A stretch of 64,000 nucleotides of DNA from Thermococcus sp. P6 (GTDB lineage: Archaea; Methanobacteriota_B; Thermococci; Thermococcales; Thermococcaceae), in NCBI RefSeq assembly GCF_002214525.1, contig NZ_CP015104.1, forward strand, positions 1,054,001 through 1,118,000, read 5' to 3'. The position numbers were made by a program, and so were the translations under genes. The notes beneath the pieces were generated by a model. That model worked only from the letters and a program-made list of their open reading frames with translations. It ran no database searches and had not been told where the DNA came from. Positions 6,692 through 15,074 of this stretch are shown here, piece after piece. How positions within the stretch are numbered: the first letter of the stretch is position 1; each line of letters begins with the position of its first letter.

Positions 6692-7383
6692 TGAGGATGG
6701 AAGTCGATTTTAAAATAGCCCCAGAGAAACGGATCCGGAAGAAGCCCTCCTACGTCAAGCCGTGGATGGGTTTGAAGTACCTCTTCAAGAAGCCGGTCAC
6801 GATAAAGATACCCTACGAGAAGACAGAGGTGGCAAAAAGGTACCGCGGTGTCCACACGCTCGACTGGAAGAAGTGCGTCGGCTGCAACTTCTGCGGTCAG
6901 ATATGCCCGGCGAGGGCCATAGAGATGACCTGGATCGAGAAGGACGGCAAGATGGAGAAGAGACCCCACCCGAAGATAGACTACGGGAGGTGCACCTTCT
7001 GCCAGTTCTGCGTTGACGTGTGCCCCACCGGAGCCCTCGGCTTCATCGAGACCTTCGTTATAACCACCACGGGGAACGAGGAAGAGCTCCAGCTCTACGA
7101 CTGGGTGCCCATCCATCCGGACGAGTTCAGGAAGTATCAGGACGAGTACGGCGACTACCTCTTCCCTGTTGAGAAGATAGAGTTCGATAAGGAGAGCCGG
7201 GAGGTAACCTACCACCTCAGGGACGGCTCGATCTTCAAGTTCAAGATACTGGGCTACGGCATAAGGCCGCCGAAGAGACCAACTCCGAAGAGGCCAACTC
7301 CGGCCAAACCCGCGGCAAAGGAGGAAAAGAAAGCCTCCAAGCCAGCGGATGGAAAGGCTCCGGCAGAGGAAGAGAAGAAGTGA
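6691..7383 (+). CDS. mbxN: MBS subunit N (NuoI family, two 4Fe-4S clusters)
   Basis: This NuoI-type ferredoxin-like subunit passes electrons from ferredoxin to the J/L site. Two classical 4Fe-4S motifs are present: CVGCNFCGQICP around residue 66 and CTFCQFCVDVCP around residue 104. The last 45 residues are a low-complexity tail rich in Lys, Pro, Ala and Glu, including a repeated PKRPTP unit. I cannot assign a role to this tail. The ATG at 6691 overlaps the mbxL stop; ATG 6697 is an alternative start. It is the last gene of the operon, followed by a pyrimidine-rich run at about 7385-7402 that may end transcription. Confidence 0.92.
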   Translation: MRMEVDFKIAPEKRIRKKPSYVKPWMGLKYLFKKPVTIKIPYEKTEVAKRYRGVHTLDWKKCVGCNFCGQICPARAIEMTWIEKDGKMEKRPHPKIDYGRCTFCQFCVDVCPTGALGFIETFVITTTGNEEELQLYDWVPIHPDEFRKYQDEYGDYLFPVEKIEFDKESREVTYHLRDGSIFKFKILGYGIRPPKRPTPKRPTPAKPAAKEEKKASKPADGKAPAEEEKK

Positions 7384-7707
7384 TCCCTCCTTTCCTTTTC
7401 TTCATGGTGCGCCTTTTGACGCGTTTGAAAAGGGTCTCTACCCGGGCCTTGGGCTTTTTCAGGCTTTACTTGGAACCTTCCACATCCCCGGGAGCAGGGT
7501 ATTGACACCCATCAAACCTCAGATGCTCCTCTGGTTAGGAGCCCGAACCGAATTGCCAGAACACCGTACCTGTTTTCCTTCCGCTTATTCCGGTGGCTCT
7601 TCCTCAAAATGGCGGGGATTTGAGGATAATCACTATAAGTTGAAAACCCATCACGGGATGTCTCAAAAACCCAAACGTTTTTATAAAACCGTTCGGAAGT
7701 TTGAGAC
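7384..7707. other. Intergenic region between the MBS operon and the accessory island
   Basis: These 324 bases contain no gene I can support. They begin with a T-rich run likely to terminate the MBS transcript. At 7602-7608 and 7619-7625 is a short inverted repeat (CCTCAAA / TTTGAGG), and the stronger operator of the next gene lies at 7659-7708. A minus-strand reading around 7512-7580 encodes RYGVLAIRFGLLTRGASEV in a protein-like manner. It lacks a start, an RBS and a partner domain, so it may be a gene remnant at the island edge. Confidence 0.5.
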
Positions 7708-7708
7708 A
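7659..7708 (+). promoter_or_regulatory. Palindromic operator flanking a TATA box, probable autoregulation site
   Basis: TGTCTCAAA at 7659-7667 and its exact complement TTTGAGACA at 7700-7708 flank the TATA box TTTTTATAAAAC at about 7678-7689. The imperfect match extends inward to CAAACG / CGTTCG. The right arm ends on the A of the start codon at 7708, and the TATA-to-ATG distance of about 25 bases predicts a leaderless mRNA. A dimeric regulator bound here would cover both the TATA box and the transcription start. The HTH protein encoded immediately downstream is the obvious candidate. Confidence 0.75.
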
Positions 7709-8658
7709 TGACACTTACGAAGGCCGAGCTCAATGTGCTTTTAGAGATTGAGGAACCCATAACGTTAAGGGGGTTATCTGAGAAGCTCGACCTCTCAAAG
7801 AGTACGCTCTCATCGACCCTTCACTCCCTTGAGAGAAAGGGCCTCGTCGAGCTCGAAGGGAAGAAGCCGATAACAGTTAAGCCTGCGGAGAACAATGTAA
7901 TTGAGCTCCTGAGAAGGATTATCATGGAGTATCCTCACGTAAACGCCGCACCCATCCTCACAGGGAACCGCCTCAAAGTTCTCGCAGCCCTTGAAGTTGA
8001 AAACCCCCAGCCCCTCTGGCTCATCCAGTTAAGGACGGGAGTGAGCAGGGCGACGCTCCACAGGATTCTCAACGGGCTTATGGAAGCTCTCATCGTGGGA
8101 AAGAGAGACAGAGGCTACTTCCTGAGTGAGCGATTTGCTCCCTTCAAAGCCTTCGCTGACGAGTACTTTTACCTTCAGAACTCGATTAAAGCGAAGGAGT
8201 TTGACCCCGGCGCCTCACCTGTTTGGAGTGGTGTGGAGGAGCTGATACTCGCGACCGGGAACTTCAAGGGGGAGAGTGTTGGCGGCTTTCAGCTCACCGG
8301 ACTCGCCCGCTTCTCCGACTTTGGCCTTCCACTCATCTCGTCAGGGATTTACCATTATTACTGGCCTTCGAGAGGATTGAGCATTGAGGAGGTCGCTGTG
8401 CACACCTTGACGGTCGGAAGGGATGCAAGGGAGCTGCTTTACACCATCGTTCTCCTTAAGGGTAAAGATTTTGATGAACGCAAACTCAGGAGGCTCTCCG
8501 CCAAGTTTGGTGTTTCCTCCACCGTAGAGGAACTGCTCGAATATCTTAAGGGTATGGATAAACCGTATCCCTTCCCGTCAAGGGAGGAAGTCGAGGAGCT
8601 CTGCAGGCAATATTTTGGGGGGTGTAAGAATGATAACAAGGGACAGACTGATCCGTGA
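7708..8658 (+). CDS. Two-wHTH regulator, putative antitoxin of an AbiE-like pair
   Basis: This is a 316-residue protein with two winged-helix segments: residues about 5-55 (LRGLSEKLDLSKSTLSSTLHSL) and about 85-130 (QLRTGVSRATLHRILNGLME). The C-terminal part from about 150 is not recognised. It ends inside the next gene with a 29-base overlap. An HTH protein translationally coupled to a nucleotidyltransferase is the arrangement of type IV (AbiEi/AbiEii-like) toxin-antitoxin and HTH-MNT modules, in which the HTH protein represses its own promoter. The upstream palindrome fits that. The antitoxin role is inferred from context, and a plain regulator is possible. Confidence 0.65.
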   Translation: MTLTKAELNVLLEIEEPITLRGLSEKLDLSKSTLSSTLHSLERKGLVELEGKKPITVKPAENNVIELLRRIIMEYPHVNAAPILTGNRLKVLAALEVENPQPLWLIQLRTGVSRATLHRILNGLMEALIVGKRDRGYFLSERFAPFKAFADEYFYLQNSIKAKEFDPGASPVWSGVEELILATGNFKGESVGGFQLTGLARFSDFGLPLISSGIYHYYWPSRGLSIEEVAVHTLTVGRDARELLYTIVLLKGKDFDERKLRRLSAKFGVSSTVEELLEYLKGMDKPYPFPSREEVEELCRQYFGGCKNDNKGQTDP

Positions 8659-9358
8659 GTTTGCCCTGCTTGATGAGAAGGCTTGGCTCATGGGTTCAGA
8701 GGAGATCCGTGTTTACCTCATCGGAGGCGGGAACCTCGCTTTGAGAGGCATAAAACCGGCAACTGCGGATGTTGACGTAATAGTTGAGGATTACAGGAGT
8801 TTGAAAGCCCTTGATTCCATCCTTACAGATCCATCTCCAGAGCTGAGGACGAGCGGTGGAATCGTGGTTTACCTGAAGGTCTTTGGACATGAGTATGAGG
8901 AAAAACTTGGCGCTGATTCGGTTTATCAAAAGATTGACCCAGAAACGGGCAACTTTAACCTTGACGTTTTCGTAAAGCGCGTCATGAGAGGTATCCAACT
9001 GACCGAGGGGATAAAAAGTCGGTCCCTTGTGTCCGAGGAGTTTCAGGAGCTGAAACGGTTAAGGGTTTATCTCGTTTCCCTTGAGGACATCTTTTTGTTC
9101 AAGGGCGTTACATCGCCTGGCCGTTCAAAGGACGTTGATGATATCCTGCGGATCCTCGAAGCCGGGGTTGACTTTAATGTGATCCTCGACGAGATCAAAG
9201 CTCAGAGGAGGGTAATCGAATCTGAAAGATCTGGACGCCTTGCGGCTGTTTTCCTTGAAAAGATGGAAGGTGTTCGGGAAATTCTAAGGGGAAGGGGTCT
9301 GAGGAGTCTTGGGCTGGATAATTTCATTGATTCTCTTGAGGAATTGTTATCCGGATAA
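8630..9358 (+). CDS. Nucleotidyltransferase-fold protein, putative AbiEii-like toxin
   Basis: This protein has 242 residues if it starts at ATG 8630, which follows the strong RBS GGGGGGTG at 8617-8624; an in-frame TTG lies at 8615. The nucleotidyltransferase signature is visible near residues 29-50: LIGGGNLALRG, then a DVDVIV pair of metal-binding aspartates, with a third acidic residue in NLDVF. A later motif, SLEDIFLFKGVTSPGRSKDVDDI, resembles the K...R..D segment of AbiEii/MenA-type toxins. The partner is the overlapping HTH gene. I infer a tRNA- or protein-modifying growth-inhibiting enzyme. A plain DUF6036-type nucleotidyltransferase annotation would also be correct. Confidence 0.7.
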   Translation: MITRDRLIREFALLDEKAWLMGSEEIRVYLIGGGNLALRGIKPATADVDVIVEDYRSLKALDSILTDPSPELRTSGGIVVYLKVFGHEYEEKLGADSVYQKIDPETGNFNLDVFVKRVMRGIQLTEGIKSRSLVSEEFQELKRLRVYLVSLEDIFLFKGVTSPGRSKDVDDILRILEAGVDFNVILDEIKAQRRVIESERSGRLAAVFLEKMEGVREILRGRGLRSLGLDNFIDSLEELLSG

Positions 9359-9436: not shown

Positions 9437-12400
9437 ATGGAGCTCGAGAGGAGAATTGAAAATATTCTAAAGGAGCTCACTCCGGAGACGAAACCGGAAG
9501 AGGCAATAAGGATTTTCAGGGACCTTTTTAAGGAAGCATGGGGGTTCGCATACGCGGACGAAACCATAAACCTCCAGCAGATTGAGGATTCAACGGTCGG
9601 GGAACTCACCCGGCTGCTCAAGGTCATAGGGAGGAGCAAGCCCCCGGCAGGGGAGAGCTTCCACGTCTTCTATGCTAAAAGCCCGAAGAAGGGCGGGGAC
9701 ACCGTAAGGTACAGGCAGAGGCTGGTAAGGTATCTAATCAACATCACCGATTCGATCGATCTGGAGTTTGCAAACTTCCTCGTTATCGTTGATTACTTCG
9801 GATACTGGAAGCTCCTCGTCCCGGTGTACAGAAAGGAAGTCGAAAGAACCAGAATCAACGTATATACCATCGACCCTGCTGCAGGGAAATTCCGGACGCT
9901 GGTCAAGAACATGGCGGAAGTTGGGAGGGCCATCCGGGAAAAGAAAAGACTCACGGCGAGCGATATAAAGGAGATAATCGATGAGCACATGCAGGTCAGG
10001 CCCCTGACGGAAGAGTTCTTCCGGGACTACAGGAGGTACTACTACAGGCTCAAGGATGAGATAAAGAGGCTTTACGGAAAAGAACTGGAGGAAGCCTATA
10101 GGGGTGATCTCAAAAAGGAGATCTTCGTCGAGAGGGCAACCAAAACCTTTGCCCACACCTTCCTAAACAGGTTGATGTTCGTTTACTTCCTCCAGAAAAA
10201 GGGGTGGATCGTTGAAAAAGGGACCCTCAGAAGGGATCTCAGGGAGAGGGTGGACGTTAAGAACTTCGTGAGATGGCTTTACGAAAACTACAGGGAGCAC
10301 GGCGGGGAGTTCTACAGGGACTACCTCAGGGTTCTCTTTCTCCACGCTATGAACGGGCCCAGAGGAGTTACGCCCGCAGGGACAACGAGGAGATAAAAAG
10401 GGTCCCGTCTGAGGACGTCAGGGACGTCTTCTTCTACGGCGTTCCCTACTTCAACGGCGGCCTTTTTGCCCGTGTTAAGCTCGAGAACGTTGATCTGGAC
10501 GGTATAATCTCCTCCCTTCCGGAGGATCTCGTGAAAGAGATTGTCTTCGAGTTCTTTGAGGCCTACAACTTCACTGTAACAGAGGAGACGCCCTACGAGG
10601 TTGAGGTTGCCGTTGACCCGGCGATGCTCGGTAAGATCTACGAATCGCTCATAGCCGAGGAGGAGAAGGCCCTTGAGGAGGAAGAGAGGAGGGTCTCCGG
10701 GATCTTCTACACGCCGAGGGCCGAAGTGGACTTCATGTGCAGGATGGCGGTTTACGAGTACCTCCGGAGAAACCTCGAGGTGGACGATAGGCTCCTCAGG
10801 GAGTTCGTCTTTAAGCCGCTTCACGAGTGGGAGCCGAGAGCTTTACCCCGGGAGCTTGTTACGGCCCTTGAAGACGTTAAGATAGTTGACCCGGCAGCCG
10901 GAAGCGGGGCCTTTCTCGTCGGGATGTACCACCTTTTAACGGAGCTCTACGAGAAGGCCAACCTTTCGGTTGACTACGACAGGAAGCTCGAGATAATCAG
11001 GGAGAACATCTACGGGGTTGACGTGAAGGAGTGGGCCATAAGGGTTGCGAAGCTGAGGCTCTGGCTGGCGCTCATCGAGGATGAGGAGAGGATCCCCAAC
11101 GAACCGATTCTGCCGAACCTCGAGACGAAGCTGAAGGTCGGCGACTCCCTCGCACCGCCCCACTTTATCCTCAAGATTGACAGCCGGAAGAAGGTGGTCG
11201 AGATTCCGCTGGCCAGATTCAGGGAGAGCCTCAAGCTCCTCTGGGCGAAGGGGGGTATGGGTGAGGCCATGGTGGCCTACAGGGAGCTCGTGAGAAAGTA
11301 CTACATGGGTGAGAGAATAGACGGCAGACCCGTTACCTTCGAGGACATCGAGAGGGCCAGATGGGGCGTTCTTCAGGAGTTCCTTGAGGGGGCACTCGAG
11401 GAACTCAAAGCCCGGGAAAGGAAGGATATTAACCTGCTCCTCGAGGCCGTCAGGAACGAAAACCTCTCGGCCCTTGAGAAGCCTCCCTTCATCTGGGAGC
11501 TGGACTTTCCGGACGTGATGCTCGAGAAGAGGGGCTTTGACATCGTTATAGCGAACCCTCCCTACGTAAGGCAGGAGAGGATATACCCTGAACAGTACGA
11601 TCTGGCGGAGTTCGGGATGCTCGGCAAAAGGGAGCAGGAAAAACTTAGAAAGGATTACAAGAATAAGATAATCAGTCACATGGAGACCCTGATAAGGGAG
11701 AAGTTCGGGCACGAGATGAAGCTTCCGAAGAGGAGCGACCTCTATGTGTACTTCTTCATACAGGGCGTCAACCTTCTGAATCCAAAGGGTTCGCTGATTT
11801 TCATCACCTCCAACTCGTGGCTGGACGTTGACTTCGGAAAGGCCCTGCAGGAGTTCTTCCTCAGGTTCACCCATCTGAGGGCGGTTATTGACTACACGAG
11901 GAGGAGCTTCGAGCAGGCGGACGTTAACACCGTCATCACGGTTCTGACGAGGAAACCAAAGGGGCTCTTCAACACCGTTGGGACGGAGTGCGTGAACTTC
12001 GTCCTTCTGAAGAGGGACTTCGGGGAGCTTGGACTTAATGTTATCGACAGACTGCTCGAGTGCTACGCGGGAAAGGTCGATGGAGTTGAGGTCTTCGGGG
12101 GGAAGGTTTACAGTTACGAGGACGACGAGCTGAGGGTGAGGAGCGTTAGGGCCGTGGAGTTAGCGAAGATGGGAGGCCTGAGCATCGGGAAGATGAACCA
12201 GATCCTGAGGGCCTACAACGTCTCGGGCGAGTACGAGGGGATGAAGTGGGGTGGAATACTCATCAGGGCTCCGGGGATATTCTACGTGATCCTCCGGAAG
12301 GGAAAGGGAAAACTGGTGAGGCTCGGAGATATCGCCGAGGTCAGATTCGGCATAAAAACGGGAGCGAACGAGTTCTTCTACCTTGAGCCGATTAAGAACC

Positions 12401-13290
12401 CTGTGGAGTGGCCGGTCTGTCAGGTTTGCGGAAGGGTTCATAAACCGGACGAGGGGTTAATTGCCGTGAGGAACAAGGCTGGATGGGAGGGCTACATCGA
12501 GGAGGAGTTCTTGAGGCCTGTCATAGTAAGTCCCCGTGAAATCAAAAAAGCTTTGGTTGATGTTTACGGATTAAAGATGAGGGCATTAATCTGTAACGAA
12601 CCTTTAGATTCGTTAAAGGATAAACTAAAGGTTCATGTTCTGAATTACATTAGATGGGGGGAACACATGGGTTATCCCGAGCGAAGAACTCTTAAGAGTA
12701 GAAAACCTTGGTACAAATTAGTCCCACATGATACTCCAGATGTTTTATGGCCAATGATACACAACGATCGGCTAATTGTTGGGATGTTACGAAACAAAGA
12801 TATTGTAGTTGATCATAATCTCTTTGAAATAAAAGCCAATAAAAACGAATCGCCTCTTGTTCTTTTTGTGTCTTTGTTTTCGACTTATCAGGCACTCATT
12901 AGAGAACTTCTCGGGCGTTCAAATCTCGGAGAGGGGGCATTAAAAACTGAGGGCATTGACATTAAAAAACTCATTGTCTTCAAAAAAGAAGCTTTAGCTG
13001 GATCTATGGATCAGTTAAACCAGATTGTCAGAAAATTAGGGGATTATAAAATCAAATCCATCTTCGAAGAACTCGGCCTGCCGAAGCCCAACCGCGACCT
13101 GAGCAACATCAACCCCGATGATGTGTCCCTCGATAGGATCATGCCGGACAGAAGGGAGCTCGACAGGGTCGTCTTCGAGGCCCTCGGGTTAACGGAGGAG
13201 GAGCAGCTGGAGGTTTACAGGGCCGTTGTCGAACTCGTGAAGGCGAGGCTGGTGAAGGCGAGGACGTTCAAGAAGAAAAAGCGGAAATGA
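9437..13290 (+). pseudogene. Type IIG / PglX-like adenine DNA methyltransferase, frameshifted
   Basis: Two reading frames together encode one protein of about 1280 residues. The first starts at ATG 9437 behind AAGGATG and makes about 307 sensible residues to HAMNG, then runs into nonsense and stops at 10396. The second frame takes over sensibly at about 10360 (QRSYARRDNEEIKRVP). Loss of one base in GGGCCC at 10355-10360 explains the break. The second part carries SAM motif I (DPAAGSG, about 10888) and the N6-adenine catalytic motif NPPY at 11554-11565. The C-terminal half should hold the target recognition domain, where bases about 12540-13070 are strikingly AT-rich. I saw no convincing PD-(D/E)XK nuclease in the N-terminal part. 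Real decay, an assembly error or recoding cannot be separated here. Confidence 0.8.
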
Positions 13291-13351: not shown

Positions 13352-13942
13352 TTAGAGTTCCCTAATAACCTCCTCAATACACTCGATTACGGTATTTCTC
13401 TGAGTTCTTAAAATATATTTTAAGGTCCCATTGTTGGAATCTTCAAGTAACCGCTCTATTGATTCGTACTTTTTCAAAGATTTAACAGCCTGTTCTTTCT
13501 TGGAGAAATCCACAGGCTCCTCTATGCGTCCCTGTTTGATCTTCGTATTGTTGCTAAGGTCGTAGTCGGCGGCGTTTCTGAGTCCCCTTAAATACATAAT
13601 GGAGTTGTGCGCCTGTCTCAGCTTGAGGTCCTTGACCCTATGTTTTAATTTTTCTAAAAACAGCGCCACGGCCTTATGCGATCTCGGTCCGTCAAGTTCA
13701 TTCAAAAAATCTTCAAGGCTTCCTCTGGAACGGGTATTCGTGGGATAACTGTTTAGCTCGACTTTTAGAACTTTTCTGAGTTGCAAAAAGGCAGAATAGT
13801 AATATCTTCCAACAATGGTCCTATTAACGGCATCGGATGGGGGGAGCTCTGGATCATTACGCGTTTCCGATGGGGTTTTATCAGACAGACGCAGCAGGTA
13901 GTCTCCAACATGCTTAAACCCCTTTGGATCAAAGCCGGGCAT
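13352..13942 (-). CDS. Unknown protein, possibly HEPN-like, third gene of an opposite-strand trio
   Basis: This is a 196-residue, mostly helical, charged protein. Residues about 40-62 (RTIVGRYYYSAFLQLRKVL) and 118-128 (RGLRNAADYDL) resemble the two conserved helices of HEPN-superfamily proteins, including an R..ADYD motif. The classical RxxxxH nuclease motif is not evident, so I hold the assignment loosely. The start ATG follows GGTGGGG, and the gene lies 12 bases behind its upstream neighbour, so the three minus-strand genes probably form one transcript. Base composition is clearly more AT-rich than the housekeeping genes. It ends convergently with the methyltransferase. Confidence 0.6.
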   Translation of the reverse strand: MPGFDPKGFKHVGDYLLRLSDKTPSETRNDPELPPSDAVNRTIVGRYYYSAFLQLRKVLKVELNSYPTNTRSRGSLEDFLNELDGPRSHKAVALFLEKLKHRVKDLKLRQAHNSIMYLRGLRNAADYDLSNNTKIKQGRIEEPVDFSKKEQAVKSLKKYESIERLLEDSNNGTLKYILRTQRNTVIECIEEVIREL

Positions 13943-13954
13943 GTTCCCCCACCG

Positions 13955-14446
13955 TCATTCAAAAAACGAGTATACCAGTATCCTGTTCGATATATCGGGA
14001 TCAGCAGTGAGGATTTTGTATTCTAACTCCTCTGAGAGGTCGACGACGTTTTCGGCGTCAGCAGAAAATCTGACGATGAGAATCACGTGGGGGCTGAAGC
14101 CTTCTTCCGGAGCGCCTCCGGTAATTTTCACATATTTGATCTCAGGCATCTTCAAAAACTTGGGAAGAAGGTTAGTTAAGTACTGATAGGTATTCAGGTA
14201 TTGATTAATGTGTCTCCGGTCCGATACAAGTAATTCAATAAGAGCTTCGTCATCGATTTTAAGTTTTCCCGAATACTTCTTCTCCAGTTCTTTTAATCTG
14301 AATAGGGGCATTAGTATCTTTAAGAGCCGTTTAAGTTCTTCATTAATTCTGGCATAACTTTCCGTAGAGGCATCCTCCAAAAGAACAACATCACGATCTT
14401 TTTCAAAGAATAACCACTGGTCTGCCACCTTAGCTGACATCGCCAT
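13955..14446 (-). CDS. Unknown 163-residue protein, middle gene of the trio
   Basis: I do not recognise this protein. The N-terminal half is helical and charged (SYARINEELKRLLKILMPLF, then RLKELEKKY). The C-terminal half looks like beta strands with SPHVILIVRFSADAENVVDL. There is no signal peptide or membrane segment. The ATG lies inside the end of the upstream gene with a 17-base overlap, behind GAGGTG, so the two are translationally coupled. AT-rich composition and location between a methyltransferase and a nuclease-helicase suggest an accessory or regulatory part of the defence locus. Confidence 0.6.
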   Translation of the reverse strand: MAMSAKVADQWLFFEKDRDVVLLEDASTESYARINEELKRLLKILMPLFRLKELEKKYSGKLKIDDEALIELLVSDRRHINQYLNTYQYLTNLLPKFLKMPEIKYVKITGGAPEEGFSPHVILIVRFSADAENVVDLSEELEYKILTADPDISNRILVYSFFE

Positions 14447-14999
14447 CTTTGAGCACCTCGTTTAATATTTCCCGAAACTTCTTCAGGTCGTTTTTTGTTA
14501 TTATGAAATTCACAGTATTCGGTTTTTTGGATCGCATGTGCTCAATTTTCAGGAGGTAATACTCCAAAGGCTCATCGATGTTTAGTGTCGCTCTATACAG
14601 GTTGATCCCGTCAACGACTGGAATTGAATATTCCCTTTTAAGTTTGGCCTTTGTTCTCATATCCGGAACGTTAAATTTTTCAAACACTTTTTTTTCAAAT
14701 TCATTTTCGGGCTGTTTTTCATTAAATATGAGTTCGCCCAGCGTTCCAAGTATCCTCTTTGTAGCGAGATTAACGTACTTTTTCTCCTGATCTGGGGGTA
14801 TTCCTAACTCCCTCAGGTATGGGCGTATCTCGCCAGTTGAAACCGAAAGCCCGACCTCCCCCTCACCACTCACGATAGCCTTTAAATTCGTAAGTGACAG
14901 GATCTTTTCTATAACCCCGCTTACCTTGGATTCGTCAGTGGGAGTTTCCTCGTATTCAACAAGTTTTTGGAGAAGTTTAATGAGGTCACTGTCTGCCAT
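14430..14999 (-). CDS. Unknown 189-residue protein, first gene of the trio
   Basis: The family is not recognised. I take ATG 14999 (MADSDLIKLLQ), preceded by GGGTGTGAG, over an in-frame start 15 bases upstream. The N-terminus is helical and acidic. Residues about 125-150 (YSIPVVDGINLYRATLNID) look like strands, and the C-terminus is a charged helix. It overlaps the next gene. A TATA-like TTTTTAAGAG lies about 30-45 bases upstream on the minus strand (15031-15043), giving a very short leader. Local GC in one 60-base line (14461-14520) is about 28 percent by hand count, well below the rest of the window. Confidence 0.6.
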   Translation of the reverse strand: MADSDLIKLLQKLVEYEETPTDESKVSGVIEKILSLTNLKAIVSGEGEVGLSVSTGEIRPYLRELGIPPDQEKKYVNLATKRILGTLGELIFNEKQPENEFEKKVFEKFNVPDMRTKAKLKREYSIPVVDGINLYRATLNIDEPLEYYLLKIEHMRSKKPNTVNFIITKNDLKKFREILNEVLKDGDVS

Positions 15000-15074
15000 A
15001 GAACTCACACCCACACACTTTTACATAACTACTCTTAAAAACATTTCGACAATTCCAGATAACGAATCCACTGT

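Follow-up and report, generated by a model that had tools for sequence, protein, structure and literature searches.

In AbiE systems, described in Streptococcus agalactiae and as Rv2827c-Rv2826c in M. tuberculosis, the antitoxin binds inverted repeats that span its promoter and thereby represses its own synthesis (PMC3985639, PMC7319586). The repeats have perfect arms of 11 bp spaced by N27, with an extended 23-3-23 arrangement (PMC3985639, PMC7319586). The C proteins of type II restriction systems are autoregulators that form a small circuit, and their genes lie just ahead of the restriction gene (PMC12255303). Toxin genes are also found within type I restriction-modification (RM) systems: the RRDM island of EPEC, a type I RM system controlled by RptR, carries DarTG2 between hsdS and hsdR (PMC12255303), and the latent toxin PrrC is embedded in the type I RM operon of EcoprrI (PMC3874165).

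Here we analysed a 64-kb stretch of the Thermococcus sp. P6 genome (hereafter the window), in which a preliminary description had recognized a leaderless, AbiE-like unit of an HTH regulator and a nucleotidyltransferase (NTase) with a palindrome around its TATA box. The products belong to two groups, HVO_2833-type regulators and DUF6036 nucleotidyltransferases, that are without an assigned function, and none of the papers covered by our literature search named HVO_2833 or DUF6036. We think it probable that the two genes form an autoregulated, toxin-antitoxin-like pair that serves as a control and effector module of archaeal mobile defence and plasmid loci.

Results

The two genes and their products

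The first gene of the pair (7708..8658, plus strand), which is probably leaderless, encodes a tandem winged-HTH (wHTH) regulator of 316 aa, the predicted autorepressor and antitoxin. Pfam HTH matches cover residues 7-60 and 86-139, and HVO_2833_C (PF24271) covers residues 194-302 with 67.3 bits against a cut-off of 34, placing the protein among the HVO_2833-type HTH regulators. An AlphaFold model built with 8 sequences (mean pLDDT 73.7 for the whole model) has two winged-helix domains, for the most part at a pLDDT of about 90; a long helix (141-165) and an uncertain C-terminal domain come after them. Only the two wHTH domains of the model are of good quality, and fold comparison with it returned generic wHTH matches, none with an E-value below 0.001.

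The second gene (8630..9358, plus strand) encodes a nucleotidyltransferase of 242 aa, the predicted toxin, and adjoins the HTH gene in homologues. It matches PF19502 with 25.9 bits (cut-off, 23.6), indicating that it belongs to DUF6036. As had been described, the two genes overlap by 29 bases, from the NTase ATG at 8630 to the end of the HTH stop codon at 8658. The NTase contains the pol-beta motif hGG...DxD, whose GGG and DxD are invariant in 27 sequences. From Thermococci to haloarchaea, GGG, R, T-x-D-x-D, D112, K158, R165, D168 and D171 are invariant, and G32-G34, R39, K42, T45, D47 and D49 are conserved, a layout that would be expected of an active polymerase-beta-type nucleotidyltransferase. 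The start of the protein, MITRxRL, is likewise kept in homologues. A structure model of the NTase was too poor for use (pLDDT 51.9), and fold comparison gave no match.

The term AbiE-like holds for the logic of the unit, an autoregulated HTH gene followed by an NTase gene with inverted repeats across the promoter, but not for family membership, which we rejected from family models and a profile comparison and from the differing architecture of the regulator. No AbiEi model was among the best 25 of 36 Pfam matches of the HTH protein (to an E-value of about 0.05). When the 94 genomes were searched with PF08843, no NTase of such a pair was among the matches listed; the window NTase matches PF19502 only. 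PF08843 matched 7 of 20 NTase homologues weakly (best E-value, 0.0043), and hhalign of the DUF6036 NTases against 13 archaeal AbiEii proteins gave an E-value of 0.14, with the Lys-Arg-Asp block aligned.

A dyad over the promoter is conserved and covaries

The promoter of the HTH gene is covered by an imperfect dyad of 52 bp (7658..7709, centre at 7683/7684), the predicted operator, in which 20 of the 25 symmetric pairs match. This is the unique maximum in the 64-kb window, with a score of 17 for the next best centre. On the plus strand, the outer left arm, ATGTCTCAAA (7658..7667), is the exact complement of the outer right arm, TTTGAGACAT (7700..7709), and covaries with it between subfamilies; the right arm runs into the start codon, its final two bases being the first two of the ATG at 7708. 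After three unpaired positions come the inner half-sites, CCAAACG on the left (7671..7677) and CGTTCGG on the right (7690..7696), which pair at 6 of 7 positions. The TATA box, TTTATAAA (7680..7687), lies at the centre of the dyad and is itself palindromic, and its central columns are kept in homologues.

Thus the exact arms that had been reported to enclose the TATA box and to reach the start codon are present, and at 10 bases each they are one base longer than claimed. Exact 10-nt arm pairs with a spacer of up to 60 are not rare, occurring 7 times in the window, and arm length alone is therefore no argument. What is rare is the whole dyad, together with its position and its conservation, rather than the exact arms. 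A second, weaker repeat noted upstream also exists (TCCTCAAA at 7601-7608 and TTTGAGGA at 7619-7626), but with 0.3 such repeats expected per 400 bp it is at chance level and is missing upstream of homologues, and we rejected it as a meaningful element.

The same dyad, without gaps, is found at the same place in homologues from Thermococcales, Geoglobus and haloarchaeal plasmids. Its centre lies 24-25 nt before the start codon in Thermococcales and 27 nt before it in haloarchaea, and the TATA box is always covered. The outer arms vary by subfamily yet stay complementary (TGTCTCAAA/TTTGAGACA, GTATCAAAA/TTTTGATAC, GTGCCAAAA/TTTTGGCAC and TGTCCAAAAA/TTTTTGGACA; in haloarchaea, TGTAACA/TGTTACA). 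Only a degraded dyad is present in the promoter on a Thermococcus profundus plasmid (L007/L078).

Covariation was measured in a gapless alignment of 17 divergent promoter 52-mers, using as controls the same alignment with the partner slid by 1-3 columns and 500 shuffles. In the dyad, 75.3% of the cells were paired compared to 31-48% in the slid controls, 55 cells were changed on both sides compared to 10-21, and covariation was 0.290 compared to 0.059-0.100. None of the 500 shuffles attained the paired fraction or the covariation of the dyad. The paired positions fall into three groups (the outer block, the inner block and the core with the TATA box), with unpaired positions between them, and from this pattern we infer that each monomer may read two half-sites with its two winged helices.

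A relaxed operator pattern found 14 sites in 94 genomes, with at most one site per genome and one in the genome that contains the window; the reversed control pattern found none in the same genomes. Because these sites are few and nearly all are HTH-gene promoters (12 of the 14), the HTH protein is most likely a dedicated autorepressor. We also observed two orphan dyads in genomes without a full-length HTH gene of the window's clade: one precedes hsdR (L141 in genome G015, about 7020-7070), and the other is near a DUF499/PLD-helicase (Hma-like) locus (G038:C1:348077-348117).

One could argue that the palindrome is no operator but arose by chance or has a structural basis, such as a terminator or a mobile repeat. 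Besides the frequency of exact 10-nt arms in the window, the symmetry that palindromic TATA boxes contribute themselves and the presence of the dyad in the two genomes just named (G015 and G038), which lack a full-length HTH gene of the clade, would speak for this explanation. We nevertheless regard it as very improbable, given the compensatory changes of the arms between subfamilies, the fixed position relative to the start codon and the limit of one copy per genome even with the relaxed pattern. Judged from these comparisons, the operator is very likely real and conserved, and the HTH protein probably represses its own promoter; the covariation of the dyad arms lends strong support to the earlier proposal that the unit is autoregulated through its HTH partner.

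The predicted leaderless start was supported as well. Work on Thermococcus onnurineus placed the TATA box between -30 and -20 and mapped 117 leaderless genes (PMC5316973). The A+T core in the window lies ~24.5 nt before the ATG, and the constant distance from dyad centre to start codon fits the Thermococcus TATA position, making leaderless initiation of the HTH gene a good prediction.

Distribution of the pair and decay of the nucleotidyltransferase

Homologues of the HTH protein are present in 37 of 94 Thermococcales genomes and those of the NTase in 32 of the 94, and any Thermococcales NTase homologue beyond fragment size neighbours an HTH gene. Both proteins also have homologues in Archaeoglobales. 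The pair is carried by a 38-kb plasmid of Thermococcus profundus and by >100 mainly haloarchaeal plasmids, on one of which a transposase separates the HTH gene from the NTase. The overlap of the two genes, their stable pairing and their mobile, patchy distribution are what one expects of a toxin-antitoxin pair. A viral origin was considered and rejected, as viral contigs and phage records yielded no relatives.

On haloarchaeal plasmids, the annotated order usually begins with orc1/cdc6 or an AAA ATPase gene and a divergent gene for a 108-aa product; the HTH gene comes next and overlaps the DUF6036 gene behind it by 4 bases. In two haloarchaeal plasmid loci (L080 and L083), a second palindrome, TTAACCAACA...TGTTGGTTAA, lies at about -124 to -84 upstream of the HTH gene; being located between this gene and the divergent 108-aa gene, it is perhaps an operator of the latter. 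On three haloarchaeal plasmids (L079, L120 and L122), VapBC-type PIN/AbrB genes stand behind the HTH gene in place of the NTase.

To compare the decay of the two genes, we used 50 loci with an intact HTH gene, 35 from Thermococcales and Geoglobus and 15 from haloarchaea, the last obtained via the HTH gene. In about 16-17 of these 50 loci, which are not phylogenetically independent, the NTase has been disrupted or displaced or is missing. Nine of the losses fall in the Thermococcales and Geoglobus set, and some of them, being single frame changes near the N terminus, may reflect errors of assembly. In three loci (L008, L018 and L020), the NTase has a frame change or no start within the first 25 codons and the remainder is mostly open; sequencing error, decay or an unusual start may each account for this 5' anomaly. 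Conversely, no locus combined an intact NTase with an adjacent HTH gene that is truly broken, the apparent case (L149) ending at a contig edge, and an independent NTase search of the 94 Thermococcales genomes returned no full-length NTase without an HTH gene.

This asymmetry fits a toxic NTase that can be lost and a regulator that has to stay, although retention of the HTH gene could instead reflect regulation of the downstream gene (hsdR) rather than an antitoxin role. On balance, the pattern of loss inclines us to regard the NTase as the toxin.

Restriction genes beside the pair

In the window, a type IIG restriction-modification gene (9437..13290, plus strand; PADLOC REase_MTase_IIG) begins 78 bp downstream of the NTase and is a possible third cistron. 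A frameshift near 10360 splits it into frames of 319 and 1005 aa, whereas its homologues in other Thermococcales have one uninterrupted frame of about 1300 aa. The gene has its own SD and a possible weak TATA box, and read-through from the pair is therefore only a possibility here. A PLD/SNF2 helicase gene follows the IIG gene. Between the two, on the minus strand (13352-15014), are three small genes with almost no family matches, one of which encodes a 196-aa product with a weak match to a HEPN model. The idea that the mbhN-ccdA interval is a defence hotspot was rejected: relatives have about 50 bp or ordinary metabolic genes there, and thus it is a point of rearrangement or insertion.

Four Thermococcales (L124-L127) have the HTH gene inside a type I system, between its hsdS and hsdR genes, and in three genomes the full order is hsdM-hsdS-[operator]-HTH-NTase-hsdR, with the operator in the 110-140 bp between hsdS and the HTH gene. 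The dyad is absent from the hsdM promoters. The NTase reading frame extends past the hsdR start codon in two loci (L125 and L127), about 16 bp separate the genes in a third (L126), and in each of the three an SD for hsdR lies inside or beside the NTase end. Since the genes overlap or abut, hsdR would have to share the upstream transcript, barring a promoter inside the NTase gene. In the fourth locus (L124, genome G087), an in-frame deletion took the NTase core and left HTH and hsdR intact. In G015, both HTH and NTase are lost and the operator is still present before hsdR. The overlap or abutment of the pair with hsdR, together with this operator-only locus, suggests that the switch probably limits the restriction subunit too. 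In a further genome (G083), the pair precedes a decayed hsdR. A different arrangement was seen in G004 (L166), where a gene for a 385-aa ATPase-like protein occupies the hsdS-hsdR slot and is followed, before hsdR, by a remnant resembling the tail of an NTase; judged from these genes, the slot looks like an exchange spot inside the type I operon.

Other members of the window's clade have Hma, Gabija/OLD-like or type I genes nearby. In the remaining two Thermococcales subfamilies (B and C), the neighbours are surface-polysaccharide or other genes, not restriction genes, and the link to restriction is thus a property of one clade. The hsdR type of this clade occurs in 7 genomes, and the type I link may go back to one or a few insertions. 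Placing the unit at the edge of a defence island, as was done initially, is right for the window but understates the link, as relatives have the pair inside a type I restriction operon.

The finding that groups B and C have no adjoining restriction genes raises the question of whether the pair is a plain toxin-antitoxin addiction module that stabilises mobile DNA, its restriction neighbours being incidental and without a regulatory tie. Its patchy distribution (37 of 94 genomes), its presence on the T. profundus plasmid and on the many haloarchaeal plasmids, often by orc1/cdc6, and the three plasmids with VapBC in the NTase's place agree with such a role. We judge it unlikely, because in the type I loci the overlapping or abutting NTase and hsdR genes leave no space for an hsdR promoter between them and because the orphan operator of G015 stands before hsdR.

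Alternatively, the HTH protein might be a dedicated, C-protein-like restriction controller, and the NTase, instead of being a toxin, might modify another component such as the HTH protein or the restriction complex. G087, which retains HTH with hsdR after deletion of the NTase, is in line with this, and work on HEPN/MNT reports that nucleotidyltransferases of the MNT type can serve as antitoxins by AMPylating their partner (PMC7641770). However, the HTH-NTase pair also occurs without restriction genes, and an intact NTase was never found without the HTH gene, as expected for a toxin; we consider this second alternative improbable.

Our preferred reading remains an autoregulated, toxin-antitoxin-like pair that has probably been drawn into restriction control in one clade. 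A restriction controller should have its operator in the promoter of the restriction gene, and gene order and overlap fit this in the type I loci. We consider that control of the restriction gene by the switch is likely in the type I loci and rather doubtful in the window itself.

Discussion

The dyad, its conservation and covariation, the order of the genes, their overlaps and the decay of the NTase are features of the sequences themselves. The mechanism that we infer from them, comprising binding, repression, dimer stoichiometry, toxicity and read-through, is as follows. A dimer of the tandem winged-HTH protein would bind the 52-bp dyad, and with two DNA-reading domains per chain it would read four half-sites. 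The bound dimer would cover the TATA box, the BRE and the start site and block TBP/TFB, and in this way the protein would repress its own leaderless transcript. The NTase, as the toxic partner, would be translated from the HTH message through the short overlap, and the HTH protein would restrain it at least by repression and perhaps also as an antitoxin. In the window's clade, the repressed promoter would read on into a restriction gene (hsdR, or possibly the IIG gene in the window), which would make the HTH protein also a controller that limits restriction activity. The methylase genes would be expressed from a separate promoter.

If hsdR is indeed under the switch, some archaea control type I restriction transcriptionally, with a toxin partner in the same transcript. 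The covarying operator provides a concrete candidate binding site in genetically tractable hosts (Thermococcus and Haloferax), and the matched natural variants of operator and protein offer a way to ask how tandem wHTH proteins read DNA.

The pair resembles AbiE type IV systems (AbiEi, COG5340; AbiEii, DUF1814, PF08843) in being a bicistronic unit of an HTH regulator and a nucleotidyltransferase, and its NTase has hGG...DxD and a later Lys/Arg/Asp block in a similar layout. It differs in that the window regulator consists of two wHTH domains and HVO_2833_C, whereas AbiEi has one N-terminal wHTH and the AbiEi C-terminal domain. A further mark of AbiE is a toxic NTase whose neutralisation involves no complex with the antitoxin. 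In addition, the window unit has an archaeal TATA promoter with a predicted leaderless start, and its NTase is a DUF6036 protein.

Like the RptR island, the type I loci have toxin-antitoxin genes, here predicted ones, between hsdS and hsdR, and their predicted repressor likewise has a promoter that contains an operator of its own. However, RptR is a 79-aa repressor encoded upstream of hsdM that controls the whole island, whereas in Thermococcales the regulator is in the slot and the operator precedes only HTH, NTase and hsdR. EcoprrI also carries a toxin gene inside its type I RM operon, but this toxin, the anticodon nuclease PrrC, is restrained by the restriction complex itself, and there is no HTH regulator or operator of this kind. 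The C proteins share with the HTH protein the position of an autoregulator encoded upstream of a restriction gene; they differ in being lambda cI-like, in acting as both activator and repressor and in having no nucleotidyltransferase partner.

As a tentative and rather speculative extension, the module in the hsdS-hsdR slot might be a deeply conserved archaeal one that combines a tandem-wHTH autorepressor and an NTase toxin under one dyad promoter that serves only the toxin and the restriction subunit, such that loss of the repressor or inhibition of the system would release restriction and cell arrest together. It would then be a counterpart, of its own origin, of C-protein control combined with guarding of the PrrC/DarTG type. 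Compared to the known systems, three things are new: the family to which the pair belongs, the predicted operator together with its covariation in two archaeal classes, and the position of this operator, which would bring the HTH gene, the NTase and the restriction subunit under its control while leaving out the methylase.
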